A stretch of 64,000 bases of DNA from Bacteroidales bacterium (GTDB lineage: Bacteria; Bacteroidota; Bacteroidia; Bacteroidales; UBA4181), in NCBI GenBank assembly GCA_017523725.1, contig JAFWVY010000065.1:1-64000 (forward strand), read 5' to 3'. Shown here piece after piece: positions 35,663 through 45,269 of this stretch (its first letter is position 1; the number at the start of each line of letters is the position of its first letter). The notes beneath the pieces are model-generated. The model had not been told where the DNA came from. It saw only the letters and a program-made list of their open reading frames with translations, and made no database searches. A program made the translations under genes and the position numbers.

Positions 35663-38600
35663 ATGAAAACCATAACCCGGATGCTTCTGGCGGCTCTGGC
35701 AGGGCTGCAACTTGCCGGTGCGGTGAAGGCACAGCCGCGCACCATGCATTACATACCCGACGGACGTGACATTGTGTGCGTGAACGGGCAGAACCGCTAC
35801 ACGCGGGCGCTGTATGGCTCGCATACGCTGTTTCGCATCGAGACGAGCGACCGGCCGCTGTTCGCTACGTACAACAAGACAAAGAGCCAAAACCTGCGTT
35901 TCTACCTGACCTGCGGCGGACAGGAAATCCGTCTGGACAGCACGTCGTACTGTGAGGCCCGTTTCCAGGGCGGCCTGCGCACGTATGTGGTGCGCGATAC
36001 GGCCTGGGGGCAGGGCGAACTGCAACTTTCGGTGCTGGCACTTTCGGAAGAGGAGGGGGGCATATGGCGGTTCCGGACTTCCGGTTTCGACGGCCCGGTG
36101 ACGATGCGCGTCAAGATGTGCCAGATTGCCAACACGCGGATGAACCGCGACGGTGACCTCGGGACCGATGACCGGGAGAAGTTTGATCCGTCGCCGGCGG
36201 AAATCGGATTGGTTGAACTGCATTGGGCTGCAGAAGGAGAAAGCTACGTACTGCTCCGGCAGGACGAGCGGCTGGGGCTGCCTTCCACGGCCGAGGGATC
36301 GGCTATCTATGCGCAGGAGGAGGCGGTCCGGCAGGCACTTGTTTCGCGTGTGCAGTTCGATACACCCGATCCATTCATCAATACACTGGGCAGCGTACTG
36401 ATGGCTGCCGCCGACGGCCTTTGGGACGGCAAAACCTGGCTCCACGGCTGCATCGGCTGGCGGACGCAGCTGGCCGGCTGGCGGGCGGCGTATGTGGGCG
36501 ATGTCGTGGGCTGGGACGACCGGGCCGATTCGCATTTCCGGGCCTATGCCAACAGTATGGTCACCGATGTGCCGGCTGTCATTCCGCATCCGGCACAGGA
36601 CACAAGCAATAACCTGGCCCGTGCCGTGGAGCAATGGGGCACACCCATGTACAGCAACGGCTATATCTGCCGTTCGCCCGACAACAACGGACGCATGCAC
36701 CATTACGACATGAACCTCAACTATATCGACGAGTTGCTGTGGCATCTGAGCTATCACGCCGACACGGCGCTGATGCGGGAACTGTGGCCCAAACTAAAGT
36801 TGCATCTCGACTGGGAGAAGATGAATTTCGACCCGGACGACGACGGGCTGTATGACGCCTACTGCTGCATCTGGGCCAGCGATGCGCTGTACTACAACAG
36901 CGGCGCAGTGACCCATTCGTCGGCCTACAACTACCGGGGCAACCGGCTTATCGCCCGCATCGCCGAACTTATCGGCGAAGATCCGACCCCTTACAAGGCC
37001 GAGGCCGACCGCATCCTCAAGGCCATGAACGAACGGCTGTGGCTGAATAACCGCGGCCACTGGGCCGAGTTCCAGGATTTCATGGGACTGAAACGGCTGC
37101 ATGAGCATGCGGCGCTCTGGAGTATCTACACGCCGATCGACTGCGGCGCATGCACGCCGGAACAGGCTTATCAGGCCACGGAGTACGTGGACCGCTGCAT
37201 TCCGCATATCCCCATGGAATTCAATGTCGATGCTGAGGCGCTCCGCGTACTCGGCATTACACAGGAATCGCTCGGGCTGGACGGCAGATTCGCCACCCTC
37301 TCGACCACCGACTGGATGCCCTATGTGTGGAGTACCAACAACGTGGCCCATGAGGAGGTAGCGCACATGGCGCTGGCTTATTTCCTGGCCGGGCGCACCG
37401 ATATCGGATTCAACCTGCTCAAGAGCGACCTGCTGGACGAGATGTTCCTGGGACAGAGTCCCGGCAATTTCGGGCAGATCAGCTATTATGACCAGGCACG
37501 GCAGGAGGCGTACCGCGATTTCGGAGACAATGTGGGCATAACATCCCGGGCCATCCTGAACGGTCTGTTCGGCATCCGTCCCGATGCGCTCTACGGCCGT
37601 TGCGTGCTGCAGCCGGCCTGGCCGGAAGACTGGAACGAGGTGAAGGTGCGTACGCCGTACCTGAGCTATCATTTCCACCGCGAAGGGACTGACGATATCT
37701 ATGAAATAGAGCAGCACTTCGCGCAACCGTTGCAGATCCTGGTGAGGGCGCATGCCGGTGGCGGCGCTTTCCTGGAGGTGACGGGCGACAGCTCTGAGAA
37801 GCAGACCATTGTGGTTGACCGCACCAAACTGCCGCCGGCGAATGTGTTTCCGTCGCTGCCGTCCGCCCGGAGCAATGTCTCTGATCCGGTTTACATGACC
37901 AGGATGGGGTTGGATGACGTGACGCCCGATGCCCTCGGCCGTCAGCGTCATGTTAACTTGGACAAAGCTTTCAATGCATTGGCAGATACTATTTTCCGCG
38001 ACAGATACCTGTCACCGCGCTCGCCTTACACCACGCTGGAGATTCCGGTGCAGGGCATGGGAGACTGGTGCGTACCGTCGCTGTTGGCCAACATTGAGGA
38101 TGCCGGCCTCCGACGCACCATCAAGGACAATGTCTTTGACACAGGGCTCGGCGTCACCTTCCGTTCACCGGCACAGGGATTCAACGTGGCCTACACGTCG
38201 CTGTGGGACAATTATCCCGACAGCCTGTCGTTCGCCTTGGAAGGTAAGGCCAGCTGGGCCTATCTGATGCTGGTGGGCAGCACCAACAATATGCAGAGCC
38301 GCATTGACAACGCCGTGATTACGGTGACCTACCGCGACGGATCGCAGGATATGCTGCCGCTGTACAATCCCATCAACTGGTGCCCGATTGAGCAGGACTA
38401 CTTCTATGATGACTACGCCTACTGGAGTGCGCCGGTGCACCCGTATCGCATCCATCTGGGGTCGGGTATCGTGTCGCGTACACTCAAGGCGGACCTGGCC
38501 GGCAAATTCATGGACGACGGTTCCGGTGTGCACACGTCCGACCTGACGAGCGCCAGTACGCCTATCGCCCAAGGTCTCGGCATACCGGACGGAGCGGCCA

Positions 38601-38710
38601 TGATGCTGAAGATGCCGCTCAATCCCCGGAAGAAACTCCGCAGCCTGCAGCTCCGCACGCTCTCGAACGACGTGGTGGTGGGCTTGATGGGAATCACGCT
38701 GGAGAAGTAG
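35663..38710 (+). CDS. DUF4450-like exported alpha/alpha-barrel protein, putative glycosidase
   Basis: Large exported protein of 1015 residues with signal peptide (MLLAALAGLQLAGAVKA). The N-terminal beta domain has NRYTRALYGSHTLFRIET, the middle is helical with WLHGCIGWRTQLAGWRAAYV and WDDRADSHFRAYANS (about 255-300), then DPDDDGLYDAYCCIWASDA and LWSIYTPIDCG, features of the six-hairpin glycosidase superfamily and, by pattern, of DUF4450. Several conserved acids (D, E) lie in the helical core, but I cannot assign catalytic residues. A C-terminal beta domain follows. It stands alone between uvrC and the convergent rhamnose operon, sharing the operon's terminator. A role on a rhamnose-containing glycan is inferred only from this. 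Confidence 0.6.
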   Translation: MKTITRMLLAALAGLQLAGAVKAQPRTMHYIPDGRDIVCVNGQNRYTRALYGSHTLFRIETSDRPLFATYNKTKSQNLRFYLTCGGQEIRLDSTSYCEARFQGGLRTYVVRDTAWGQGELQLSVLALSEEEGGIWRFRTSGFDGPVTMRVKMCQIANTRMNRDGDLGTDDREKFDPSPAEIGLVELHWAAEGESYVLLRQDERLGLPSTAEGSAIYAQEEAVRQALVSRVQFDTPDPFINTLGSVLMAAADGLWDGKTWLHGCIGWRTQLAGWRAAYVGDVVGWDDRADSHFRAYANSMVTDVPAVIPHPAQDTSNNLARAVEQWGTPMYSNGYICRSPDNNGRMHHYDMNLNYIDELLWHLSYHADTALMRELWPKLKLHLDWEKMNFDPDDDGLYDAYCCIWASDALYYNSGAVTHSSAYNYRGNRLIARIAELIGEDPTPYKAEADRILKAMNERLWLNNRGHWAEFQDFMGLKRLHEHAALWSIYTPIDCGACTPEQAYQATEYVDRCIPHIPMEFNVDAEALRVLGITQESLGLDGRFATLSTTDWMPYVWSTNNVAHEEVAHMALAYFLAGRTDIGFNLLKSDLLDEMFLGQSPGNFGQISYYDQARQEAYRDFGDNVGITSRAILNGLFGIRPDALYGRCVLQPAWPEDWNEVKVRTPYLSYHFHREGTDDIYEIEQHFAQPLQILVRAHAGGGAFLEVTGDSSEKQTIVVDRTKLPPANVFPSLPSARSNVSDPVYMTRMGLDDVTPDALGRQRHVNLDKAFNALADTIFRDRYLSPRSPYTTLEIPVQGMGDWCVPSLLANIEDAGLRRTIKDNVFDTGLGVTFRSPAQGFNVAYTSLWDNYPDSLSFALEGKASWAYLMLVGSTNNMQSRIDNAVITVTYRDGSQDMLPLYNPINWCPIEQDYFYDDYAYWSAPVHPYRIHLGSGIVSRTLKADLAGKFMDDGSGVHTSDLTSASTPIAQGLGIPDGAAMMLKMPLNPRKKLRSLQLRTLSNDVVVGLMGITLEK

Positions 38711-38772: not shown

Positions 38773-40116
38773 CTAGAAGTCGTCGCCGTAACGTTCTTTC
38801 GTAATCTGGGCGAGAGATTTGCCGCGGGTGTCGGGCGCACCGATGACACCGACGATGAGCGATATCAGCAGCAGTACGATCATGCACCAGGCAGCAACCG
38901 TGAAACCTTCACCGTTTTCTCCGTAGATGGAAGTGAAGACGAGGCCCCAGATGGCGGACAGACCGCGCACGATGAAGAACATCAGTCCTTGGGCGCCGGC
39001 ACGGAACTTGGCGGGGAACAGTTCAGAACCCCACAGAGCATAGAAAATCTGTACGGAAATACCGCCGTTGATGCCCCAGAGGATCGAGAACGCCCAAAGA
39101 TCCACCATGCCGTTCACACCCTTGATGATAATCACCCATGTTGCGAGGGCGGCCACCAGACCGAGGATATAAAGGACGCGGTGAGGAATCTTGTCAAAGA
39201 CAAACGATATGCAGAAGGTGATGGCCACTACGATGACCCAGCCCACGCACGAAAGCATGTTCGCATACTCGTTTGAGAGGCCGCCGGCCGTCTCGTAGAT
39301 GTGCGGCTGGAAGAATCCCATGACGGAAGCTACAAGGTTCCATGTGAGATAGATGGTTGCCAGGAAACATACGGTCGCGATGGCTTTCTGGTTGCTGAAG
39401 AGCACACCGATGGCATGAACAATGCCGCTGTCCTCTCCCTTGGCCTTGGCCGCTTCGCGGGTGGCTTTCCAGTCACCCGACTCTTCGAGCTTGCGCTGCA
39501 GGTTCCATGCAATGAAAGCCACCACAAAGAGCGAGAAGAATACAACGCGGGAGCTGAATACGTTCAGGGCGTCTCCGCTCAGCGAAGCACCGCCGAAGGC
39601 ATGGCCGATGGATTCCACCCAGCCGAAGAGCACGCCGCCGGGAGCGAAGAGCATACCCAGAAGCAGGATGATCATCGGACCGCAGCCCCACGACATCTGC
39701 GAGATGCAGATGTTGCGTCCACGTTTGTTATCCTCCGAACTTTCAGAAATATAGGTCCATGAAGCCGGCACGCCGATACCTACCGAGATACCTGTGACGA
39801 GGAAGCCCAGGAGCAGCATCGGGAAGTTGACCGAGCACATGACCAGAAGGACTCCTATCATATAAACGATAAGGTTGTAGGTATAGATGAACTTGCGTCC
39901 GTATTTGTCGGCCAGGAAACCGCCGATGATGGCGCCGAGGGCGGCACCGAGACAGTTTGCACTGATGAAATTGAGCCAGCCGAGATGTAACTCGGTAAGC
40001 CCTAAGTATTTCTGCCACAGCGTAAGACCACTGGCACCGGCCACGATGGCACCGGCGTCCAAGTAGTTGGTGAGCGATACGGCGATCGTACTTTTCAGAC
40101 TGCTTTTCTTTTCCAT
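38773..40116 (-). CDS. MFS sugar transporter (probable L-rhamnose carrier)
   Basis: Inner-membrane major facilitator of 447 residues with about 12 membrane helices. Sugar-porter-like loop motifs are present: GGFLADKYGRKFIY after helix 2 (about 65-78) and a second related loop FDKIPHRVLYI (about 305). GSELFPAKFRAGAQG (about 370-384) matches the sugar porter PESPR-type region. Last gene of rhaM-rhaA-transporter, 12 bases after rhaA, so rhamnose is the most likely substrate. The carrier is unrelated in sequence to E. coli RhaT as far as I can judge. Proton coupling is assumed from the family. Confidence 0.82.
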   Translation of the reverse strand: MEKKSSLKSTIAVSLTNYLDAGAIVAGASGLTLWQKYLGLTELHLGWLNFISANCLGAALGAIIGGFLADKYGRKFIYTYNLIVYMIGVLLVMCSVNFPMLLLGFLVTGISVGIGVPASWTYISESSEDNKRGRNICISQMSWGCGPMIILLLGMLFAPGGVLFGWVESIGHAFGGASLSGDALNVFSSRVVFFSLFVVAFIAWNLQRKLEESGDWKATREAAKAKGEDSGIVHAIGVLFSNQKAIATVCFLATIYLTWNLVASVMGFFQPHIYETAGGLSNEYANMLSCVGWVIVVAITFCISFVFDKIPHRVLYILGLVAALATWVIIIKGVNGMVDLWAFSILWGINGGISVQIFYALWGSELFPAKFRAGAQGLMFFIVRGLSAIWGLVFTSIYGENGEGFTVAAWCMIVLLLISLIVGVIGAPDTRGKSLAQITKERYGDDF

Positions 40117-40128
40117 GGTTCTGTGTAT

Positions 40129-41385
40129 TTATCGTTTGGAGGTCACGTCTTTTTCGTACTGCTCGATGACGGCGATAAATTCGTTGCCAACCGGTACGTT
40201 GTTTTTGAGGCAGAACATGTCGTAAACTGCGTTCCACGGCAGAGCCTTGGCCTCTTCGAGTTCGGCCAGCACCTGGAAGCCCTTGCCCGCGATTTCCATC
40301 TTGCTGATCATCGCAGTGGGTTCGAGCAGGGCGCGGATCATGCATTTCTGGGCGGCACGGCTGCCGATGACGTAGGCACCGATGCGGTTGATGGCACCGT
40401 CGAAGTAATCCAGACCGAAGTGTACGCGGTCGATGGCGCCGGCCCTCACGATCTCGAAGAACAGTTCGGAGGTCGGATCGTCCATGATCGTCACATGGTC
40501 GGAATCCCAACGGACAGGACGGCTCACGTGCAGCATCAGTTCAGGAACGAACTGCAGTACCGCGGAGACCTTGTCGGCCGGGCTTTCGGTCGGGTGATAG
40601 TGGCCGGTGTCGATGGTGAGGATCTTGTTGTTTTTCGCAGCGTAAGCCGTGTAGAAGTCGTGGGAACCCACGGTGAAGCTCTCCAGGCCGATGCCGAATA
40701 CCTTGCCCTCGATGCAGTCCTTCATACAGGCCTTCTTCTCGGCGAAGATTTCGTCCAGCGATTCCTTCAGGAATTTACGGTACATGTAATGGTTGACGGA
40801 CATGTCCTTGCATCCGTCGTGTACCCATACGTTCATGATACACGGGTCGCCCTGGGCCTTACCCATGGCGTCGGCGATGTCGCGGCAGCGTTTGGTATGC
40901 TCGATCCAGAAATCGCGGATGCCCTTGTCAGGATTGCTGAGGGACAGATTGCCGCTCTTGGGGTGTGAGAACGAGGTGGAATTGAAGTCCAGCAAGGTGT
41001 TGTTGGCCTTGCCCCAGTCGATCCAGCTCTGGAAGTAGCTGACGTCCACTTCGTCGCGGTCTACCACTTTGCCTTTGAAATCACCGTAGATTTCGTGCAG
41101 GTTGAGACGGTGTGAGCCGGGGATCAGGGATTTTGCTTTCAGGATATCCTGACGCAGCTCGTCAATGTTGCGGGCCTGGCCTTTGCAGTCGCCCGTCACG
41201 CCCAAACCGCCGCCCAGTGCGCCGGCCTGAACTTCAAATCCTTTGACGTCATCCGCCTGCCAGCAGTGCATGCTGAGGTGGAAATCCTGCATCTGCTGCA
41301 GCACCTTGTCGGTATCGACGCCATACGCGGCATAGCGTTCTTTCGCTATCTCGTAAGCTTTCTGAATAAGTTGTTCTTTTGCCAT
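40129..41385 (-). CDS. rhaA: L-rhamnose isomerase
   Basis: Interconverts L-rhamnose and L-rhamnulose in the cytoplasm using Mn2+. The 418 residues match the E. coli type throughout: SMHCWQADDVKGFE (about 38-51), GKARNIDELR-like segment, IPGSHRLNLHEIYGD (about 87-101), DFNSTSFSHP (about 132-141), the metal ligands in LTIDTGHYHPTE (about 253-264) and HVSRPVRWDSDHV (about 284-296), and FGLDYFDGAINRIGAYVIG. Length equals the family norm. Middle gene of the rhamnose operon; rhamnulokinase and aldolase genes are not in the window. Confidence 0.95.
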   Translation of the reverse strand: MAKEQLIQKAYEIAKERYAAYGVDTDKVLQQMQDFHLSMHCWQADDVKGFEVQAGALGGGLGVTGDCKGQARNIDELRQDILKAKSLIPGSHRLNLHEIYGDFKGKVVDRDEVDVSYFQSWIDWGKANNTLLDFNSTSFSHPKSGNLSLSNPDKGIRDFWIEHTKRCRDIADAMGKAQGDPCIMNVWVHDGCKDMSVNHYMYRKFLKESLDEIFAEKKACMKDCIEGKVFGIGLESFTVGSHDFYTAYAAKNNKILTIDTGHYHPTESPADKVSAVLQFVPELMLHVSRPVRWDSDHVTIMDDPTSELFFEIVRAGAIDRVHFGLDYFDGAINRIGAYVIGSRAAQKCMIRALLEPTAMISKMEIAGKGFQVLAELEEAKALPWNAVYDMFCLKNNVPVGNEFIAVIEQYEKDVTSKR

Positions 41386-41418
41386 TATTGTATGAATATT
41401 GATGAATTGCGAATATGA

Positions 41419-41733
41419 TCAGTCGAGATGGAAAACTTCCTGCAGTTCGACGCTGACGGGGGAGTTGTCGGGGTTGACCCGCATGATGTCGGCCATGTAG
41501 TCCCACCATTTCTGCTGGATGTCGTTGGCACCGAGGTCCTGCGAGGAGGTTTCGCCTTCGATTTTCTGGGTGCTGAACAAGATGTTGGTTTCCTTGTCCC
41601 AGTAAATGGTATAGTCGGAAACACCGCTCTTCTCAAGCAGTTCTTTTATTTCGGGCCACAGGTTGGCATGACGCTTGGCGTATTCTTCCTCGCAACCCGG
41701 GTTCAGATACATTTTGAATCCAAATCTTTTCAT
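41419..41733 (-). CDS. rhaM: L-rhamnose mutarotase
   Basis: Catalyses alpha/beta anomer exchange of L-rhamnose before isomerisation. The 104-residue ferredoxin-like protein has MKRFGFKMYLNPGCEEEYAKRH-type N-terminus with the conserved Y and H (the first 20 residues fit RhaM), HANLWPEIKELL, YTIYWDKETNILFST and WWDYMADIM. First gene of the operon, 33 bases before rhaA. Confidence 0.93.
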   Translation of the reverse strand: MKRFGFKMYLNPGCEEEYAKRHANLWPEIKELLEKSGVSDYTIYWDKETNILFSTQKIEGETSSQDLGANDIQQKWWDYMADIMRVNPDNSPVSVELQEVFHLD

Positions 41734-44693: not shown

Positions 44694-44732
44694 CCGGGTC
44701 CGTCCAAAACCGTGCCGGCCAGCCTCGAGGGC

Positions 44733-44782
44733 TTAACAGATTTTAAGAGACCCTTTAACTTCTTTTAAGTGTCGGCGCTTAA
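44733..44782 (+). promoter_or_regulatory. Regularly spaced TTAA boxes, candidate response-regulator site
   Basis: Two copies of TTAACnnnTTTTAAG (44733-44747 and 44755-44769) lie 22 bases apart, and another TTAA stands at 44779-44782. The TTAA cores fall at 44733, 44743, 44755, 44765 and 44779, intervals of 10, 12, 10 and 14. Half-sites about one helical turn apart are typical of OmpR/PhoB-type regulators. They lie 79-128 bases before the repeat-protein ATG. The downstream gene has no clear TAnnTTTG box. Confidence 0.5.
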
Positions 44783-44860
44783 ACGGGCATGGAGCGTGTC
44801 CGTCAAAGGGCCAAAACAACGAAAAAGGAACAAAACAAGAAACACTTAAAAGAAATGACC

Positions 44861-45211
44861 ATGAAAAAAATGATGTTGACCCTCGCTCTGATTCTGACCG
44901 CGGTACTGACGCGTGCAGCTTCCATAGAAAACGAATATGCCTATGCCATCGACCTGGCGCCGGTGGAGGTGACGGCTCCGGCCCTGGACCTGCCGATGAT
45001 GGTGCTGAACCTGGAGGCCGTCGAGGTGACGGCTCCTGCGCTGGATGCAGTGGCCATGGTCGTCGATGCGGCGCCCGTGTTTGTAACGGCTCCGGCCCTG
45101 GATGCGGCCATCGTGCTGAATCTGGACCCGGTGGTGGTGACAGCTTCTGCGGTTGACGTCCTGTATGCGGAGACGTTGGAGGCCGATTCTGCCGCCGTTG
45201 AGATGTACTAA
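44861..45211 (+). CDS. Small exported acidic protein with four VTAPALD-type repeats
   Basis: Not recognised. From the ATG at 44861 the protein has 116 residues: signal peptide (MMLTLALILTAVLTRAAS, cleavage near 20) and a mature part of about 95 residues. Four repeats with period 18-19 cover residues 35-108: VEVTAPALD, VEVTAPALD, VFVTAPALD and VVVTASAVD, each preceded by an acidic/hydrophobic strand such as VLNLEA or VVDAAP. The mature part has no Cys, no Lys and almost no basic residues and ends DSAAVEMY. Alternation of polar and hydrophobic residues suggests stacked beta strands. No modification or transport gene is adjacent. A strong terminator follows, so it is a one-gene unit. Confidence 0.75.
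   Translation: MKKMMLTLALILTAVLTRAASIENEYAYAIDLAPVEVTAPALDLPMMVLNLEAVEVTAPALDAVAMVVDAAPVFVTAPALDAAIVLNLDPVVVTASAVDVLYAETLEADSAAVEMY
44963..45160 (+). repeat. Tandem coding repeats (period about 57 bases, degenerate)
   Basis: The DNA encoding the four VTAPALD-type units repeats with period 57, 57 and 54 bases. The first three share GTGACGGCTCC or close variants, and codons differ at silent positions, so the duplication is not recent. Confidence 0.8.
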
Positions 45212-45237
45212 ACAGATTAATCTGAAATTGGATAGAG

Positions 45238-45265
45238 GGATGGCCGTCGGGTCATCCTTTTTTTT
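45238..45265 (+). terminator. Intrinsic terminator of repeat-protein gene
   Basis: GGATGGCC and GGGTCATCC pair over eight positions (one G-T) around GTCG, followed by eight T residues. Confidence 0.88.
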
Positions 45266-45269
45266 GCCC

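Follow-up and report, generated by a model that had tools for sequence, protein, structure and literature searches.

What could a Bacteroidales bacterium do with a small, apparently exported protein that consists mostly of four copies of a segment centred on V-x-V-T-A? A 116-codon gene raises this question in the window, the stretch of 64,000 nucleotides analysed here (contig JAFWVY010000065.1, positions 1 to 64,000). We consider below whether the gene is genuine, what its repeats resemble and which role that resemblance may indicate.

A duplicated gene for a predicted exported repeat protein

The frame runs from an ATG at 44861 to a TAA ending at 45211, exactly as first read, and this start is supported because neither upstream ATG, at 44789 or at 44855, recurs in a second copy of the gene, which lies on another contig of the same genome (C40, locus L002). 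The sequence-only reading had described a signal peptide followed by four cysteine-free repeats of 18–19 residues, and our analysis agrees. The predicted signal peptide, MKKMMLTLALILTAVLTRA, has a basic n-region, a hydrophobic core and small residues at the putative cut site, and on this evidence the protein would be exposed to the periplasm. The mature chain of about 96 residues is devoid of C, K, R, H and G; its calculated pI is 4.05, its net charge about −16.5 and its GRAVY +0.92. In order, the chain reads MKKMMLTLALILTAVLTRA / ASIENEYAYAID LAPVEVTAPALD LPMMVLN LEAVEVTAPALD AVAMVVD AAPVFVTAPALD AAIVLN LDPVVVTASAVD VLYAETLEADSAAVEMY.

The repeats share the consensus [LA]x[PA]VxVTA[PS]A[LV]D, and the V of VTA falls at residues 37, 56, 75 and 93, giving spacings of 19, 19 and 18. 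Repeats 1 and 2 both contain VEVTAPALD, yet four of the codons differ, and codon choice often differs wherever the residues of the repeats agree. In the 840 kb of loci examined, no other frame of at least 50 amino acids holds at least three such motifs within 75 residues, so the pattern is more than chance.

Table 1. Features of the repeat-protein locus, in window coordinates.
Feature	Position (strand)	Sequence or basis
Upstream region and 5′ leader	44730..44860 (+)	TTAACA..TTTAACTTCTTTTAAG..GCTTAAACGGGCA.., then A-rich leader; conserved with the paralogue
Coding sequence of the predicted exported repeat protein, 116 aa	44861..45208 (+)	Uninterrupted frame; purifying selection when the copies are compared
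Predicted Sec signal peptide	44861..44920 (+)	MKKMMLTLALILTAVLTRA(A); no lipobox cysteine; read directly from the sequence
Repeat 1	44954..44989 (+)	LAPVEVTAPALD; TonB-box matrix 9.6 bits, rank 3 within the protein
Repeat 2	45011..45046 (+)	LEAVEVTAPALD; TonB-box matrix 12.4 bits, rank 2 within the protein
Repeat 3	45068..45103 (+)	AAPVFVTAPALD; TonB-box matrix 3.0 bits, rank 4, weakest match
Repeat 4	45122..45157 (+)	LDPVVVTASAVD; TonB-box matrix 17.7 bits; highest of the 73,898 background 10-mers in the window, 14.2 bits
Stop codon	45209-45211 (+)	TAA
Likely intrinsic terminator	45235..45262 (+)	GGATGGCC-GTCG-GGTCATCC plus T8; RNAfold of both copies and alignment

The two copies are 95% identical in amino acids and 90% in DNA. 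Their homology spans 44730 to 45268 and covers everything from the promoter region through leader and gene to the terminator; beyond it, blastn shows no relation between the flanks. Comparison of the copies gives a dN of 0.024, a dS of 0.18 and a dN/dS of 0.13, with 15 of the 21 codon changes synonymous (p about 4e-5). The dN/dS value, together with duplication of the promoter–gene–terminator unit only, therefore marks a maintained gene: it is real, intact, duplicated and under selection. The earlier proposal that the amino-acid repeat is maintained despite codon differences is borne out by the same ratio and by the four differing codons of repeats 1 and 2, and the paralogue, the sole homologue at hand, keeps the repeats. 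Codons 25–74 (44933–45082) carry 3 changes relative to the C40 copy and the other 66 codons carry 18; the smaller number of differences mid-gene may be a trace of gene conversion between the two.

The blastn alignment of the loci begins at 44730 and drops off there abruptly. Exact matches to the 16-mer TTTAACTTCTTTTAAG occur in the genome only at these two genes, and the common promoter region or this 16-mer may be a site for a dedicated regulator. A regulon shared through the 16-mer was rejected: when 3 mismatches or fewer were allowed, it had 14 sites and the control had 43. Both 44730–44790 and the matching C40 stretch are rich in TTAA and TTTTAAG words. Downstream, the paralogue keeps the terminator stem with changed bases (GGACGGCC..GGCCGTCC); a consensus terminator scanner did not flag the hairpin, and Rfam gave no match around the gene.

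The window copy neighbours a thioredoxin-like/DUF5106 protein and a peptidase U32, a housekeeping-type family, and the C40 copy neighbours RmuC and an alpha-2-macroglobulin-like protein. The neighbours differ between the loci, and nothing points to an operon partner. No TonB or TonB-dependent transporter (TBDT) gene lies beside either copy in the stretches read; genes for modification enzymes, proteases or immunity proteins were likewise not recognised at the two loci. Elsewhere in the window, RhaA (L-rhamnose isomerase) adjoins RhaM (L-rhamnose mutarotase) at 40129–41733, minus strand, in an apparent rhamnose-use cluster flanked by an MFS-like transporter frame (38773–40116), with a large secreted-looking frame (35663–38710) upstream.

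Pfam and NCBIfam hold no family for the protein, and PDB sequences hold no match to it, in keeping with the initial impression that the pattern belongs to no known family. The paralogue matches Pfam DUF4969 far below cut-off, and MacpD, the single match of the repeat profile among PDB sequences, was set aside as chance-like. Profile and protein searches of about 780 Bacteroidota genomes found no copy at a convincing E-value beyond these two; the relative searches covered 99 relatives, 11 genomes of the same GTDB family, 393 of the same order and 392 phylum-wide. Weak matches at five loci (L004, L006, L025, L026 and L027) proved on reading to be chance or wrong-frame. Phage and plasmid records yielded no relative. 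Nor did GTDB and IMG/VR scans, which were seeded mainly on the signal peptide and are thus weak evidence of absence, and no locus fetched by a GTDB scan seeded on the adjoining U32 peptidase held a similar repeat frame. The gene is known from one genome only, in two copies, and may be genus-restricted or simply unsampled, because the searched genomes include no other member of its genus.

Likeness of the repeats to the TonB box

The strongest lead, missed in the sequence-only reading, is that the repeat resembles the TonB box, which pairs as a beta-strand with the C-terminal domain of TonB (PMC11658791) and which precedes the plug in the Bacteroides levan SusC (PMC7618045). A motif learned without supervision from 30 TBDT N-termini reads L-[DEN]-[EDQ]-V-V-V-T-[AG]-x-[RG] (LDEVVVTAxR), and its four best 10-mers in the repeat protein are the four repeats, in register. 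Agreement with the consensus is strong for repeat 4, moderate for repeats 1 and 2 and weak for repeat 3 (Table 1); repeat 4 also outscores all 5,000 shuffles. In the reverse direction, for a matrix built from the repeats only, the TonB box is the best among about 720 sites in 18 of the 29 TBDTs and one of the best 6 in 26 of them; column-shuffled or reversed matrices give 0–3 top matches among the 29. Repeat 4 alone puts the box on top in 21 of 29 TBDTs; the other half of the repeat does so in 2 of 29.

A two-repeat profile run against the roughly 780 Bacteroidota genomes gave, apart from self-matches, weak matches only (best E 0.003). Of the thirty-three that were read, six fall on the TonB box of a TBDT confirmed by Pfam (L028, L030, L219, L221, L222 and L224): two transporter boxes, ‘VMNLDAVVVTAIG’ and ‘SVLNLDEVVVTGTG’, came from the order search and four more from the phylum-wide search, among them that of L224, where ‘SLAPVEVYAPAVD’ directly follows the signal peptide. 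About 0.01 such matches would be expected, by a rough estimate that allots TonB boxes a generous share of the searched sequence and counted seven matches including L225; this seventh was dropped, as Pfam did not confirm it as a TBDT. The succession of signal peptide, short linker and box is also that of the genome’s TBDTs that have no CarboxypepD domain, such as L010 (‘SEDMHLDQVVVTGTRVP’).

The repeats depart from the transporter motif in several respects. Before the first V they have P or A in place of the E, D or Q of TBDTs, and they lack the R or G that follows VTAx there. The repeats add a leading L, and repeats 2 and 4 an acidic residue as well. Conservation extends to the PALD segment and to the period of 19 residues, neither of which a decoy for TonB would need.

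How much of the signal lies in the V-x-V-T-A core can be gauged from phage repeats. An IMG/VR pattern scan for three VTA at 57-nt spacing returned 55 loci, mostly phage tail-like or other repeats and wrong frames. Viral tandem 19-residue repeats of the form TATxVVVTASxxKQVNK were seen at L150, L151, L156, L157, L158, L161, L164, L168, L173, L179 and L193. Used as a control, the phage 19-residue ‘TATTVVVTASxxKQVNK’ repeats rank the TonB box first in 11 of the 29 TBDTs, and a good part of the TonB-box signal is therefore due to the VxVTA core, at which other beta-repeats can arrive convergently. The resemblance between repeat and TonB box is statistically strong; as a likeness between sequences, it proves neither descent nor function.

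A possible TonB decoy and its rivals

TonB-dependent transporters far outnumber TonB proteins in bacteria, and how access to TonB is shared or limited is an open question. This genome encodes nine Plug proteins, two TonB_C proteins above cut-off and one just below it. C-terminal domains of TonB proteins lie at C29:29333–29566 and C50:33026–33292. Our best reading, to which we assign a probability of about 0.42, is that the protein is an exported, soluble array of TonB-box-like strands that would act as a decoy or buffer for TonB. The signal peptide would deliver a soluble, acidic and largely extended chain to the periplasm, where its strands would bind TonB by strand addition in competition with transporters. 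Two to four strands could bind by avidity and occupy TonB, with repeat 4 the best candidate binder and repeat 3 the poorest, and this occupation would limit TonB-driven uptake and perhaps also the entry of TonB-dependent phages or bacteriocins. The more far-reaching form of this proposal, in which a genome-encoded, multivalent periplasmic ligand kept in two selected copies titrates TonB and thereby sets or gates every import that TonB drives, or else keeps out phages or bacteriocins that depend on TonB, we advance more tentatively.

Isolated TonB boxes bind TonB with a Kd of about 9–36 µM, and ETVIV, as a free pentapeptide, blocks the action of TonB in vivo (PMC5413942). Among the papers listed by a search of open-access full texts, whose coverage is incomplete, none has a title or abstract that describes a protein with tandem or multiple TonB boxes. 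To our knowledge no natural TonB decoy has been known before; if the decoy reading is right, a soluble TonB-box protein would be the first, and would offer both a simple handle on how transporters compete and a template for agents that block nutrient uptake.

The main rival, a serious one although we doubt it, is a beta-solenoid or beta-stack that would coat the surface or form a fibre there, by folding or by polymerising. Each 19-residue, two-strand rung would comprise a VxVTA strand, the PALD turn, a second strand and a D/N turn, and the TonB-box likeness would be convergence on a good beta-strand. The regular period and the hydrophobicity of the chain (GRAVY 0.92) fit such a fold, and unrelated phage proteins do have 19-residue VVVTAS tandem repeats. 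AlphaFold2, run on a two-sequence alignment, places two short strands in each repeat, at a mean pLDDT of 53, about 60 in the repeats, and a pTM of 0.47; the Foldseek neighbours, none of them significant, are ice-binding solenoids, bactofilin and CsgA/FapC fibrils, with probability at most 0.14 among the matches listed. A model of such low confidence, with non-significant neighbours, neither supports nor excludes a fold. There would, however, be just four rungs and no caps, and a solenoid does not predict that the genome matches of the repeat profile land on TonB boxes. Should the protein be a 19-residue beta-repeat instead, it would be a minor, though clean, addition to the orphan repeat proteins.

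It is unlikely that the gene is a young orphan lacking any specific partner, for instance the detached and tandemly duplicated 5′ end of a TBDT gene (signal peptide and TonB box), retained for some slight advantage through metal binding, envelope acidity or the like. Such an origin would account for a layout equal to the N-terminus of a short TBDT and for the occurrence in one genome only, but a dN/dS of 0.13, with promoter and terminator both conserved, implies that the gene has a definite function, and the DNA search returned no match to the genome’s TBDTs. Highly improbable is a secreted precursor with several cores, from which four similar peptides such as signals or antimicrobials would be cut. 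The near-identical tandem units behind a signal peptide speak for it; against it, a mature chain without K, R or H offers no dibasic or other regular processing site, and neither locus, with their differing neighbours, holds a recognised modification, protease or immunity gene. Of the earlier interpretation, the maintained, exported-looking and repetitive protein stands and the beta-stack is a live rival; the multi-core role found no support, and nor did calcium binding.

Comparison with known systems

The calcium-binding RTX beta-roll is built of GGxGxDxUx nonapeptides, and such GGxGxD motifs are absent from the repeat protein, whose mature chain has no glycine. With curli (CsgA) and other strand–turn–strand functional amyloids the protein shares repeats of about 19 residues, predicted as two strands each; unlike them, it has no Gln/Asn ladder, neither Pfam nor NCBIfam matches it to the curlin repeat family, and its Foldseek E-values are non-significant. 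The phage TATxVVVTASx proteins (for example L150, L156 and L173) share its period of 19 and its VxVTA core, whereas they are 189–568 residues long, contain K, Q and N, have more repeats and lack the L-x-P-V context; viral-contig and phage searches gave no sequence match between them and the query.

With the TonB box of TBDTs and of TonB-dependent colicins and pyocins, the repeats share a V-x-V-T-A core after L-x-x, placed near the signal peptide as in short TBDTs, and they would likewise face the periplasm if the protein is exported. They differ in forming four tandem copies, spaced by 18–19 residues, on a free-standing chain of 96 residues that has no plug, barrel, receptor-binding or toxin domain. 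A Pfam scan of the 116-residue chain found neither Plug (PF07715) nor the 22-strand barrel (PF00593), and it is thus not a TBDT; for colicins and pyocins, Pfam and NCBIfam found no receptor-binding or toxic domain, and none of the scanned adjacent genes is toxin- or immunity-like. The nearest parallel in proposed mechanism, a soluble TonB-box strand that competes for TonB, is the pentapeptide ETVIV (PMC5413942). That peptide is synthetic and monovalent, whereas the repeat protein, by analogy, would be a genome-encoded, exported and multivalent counterpart.
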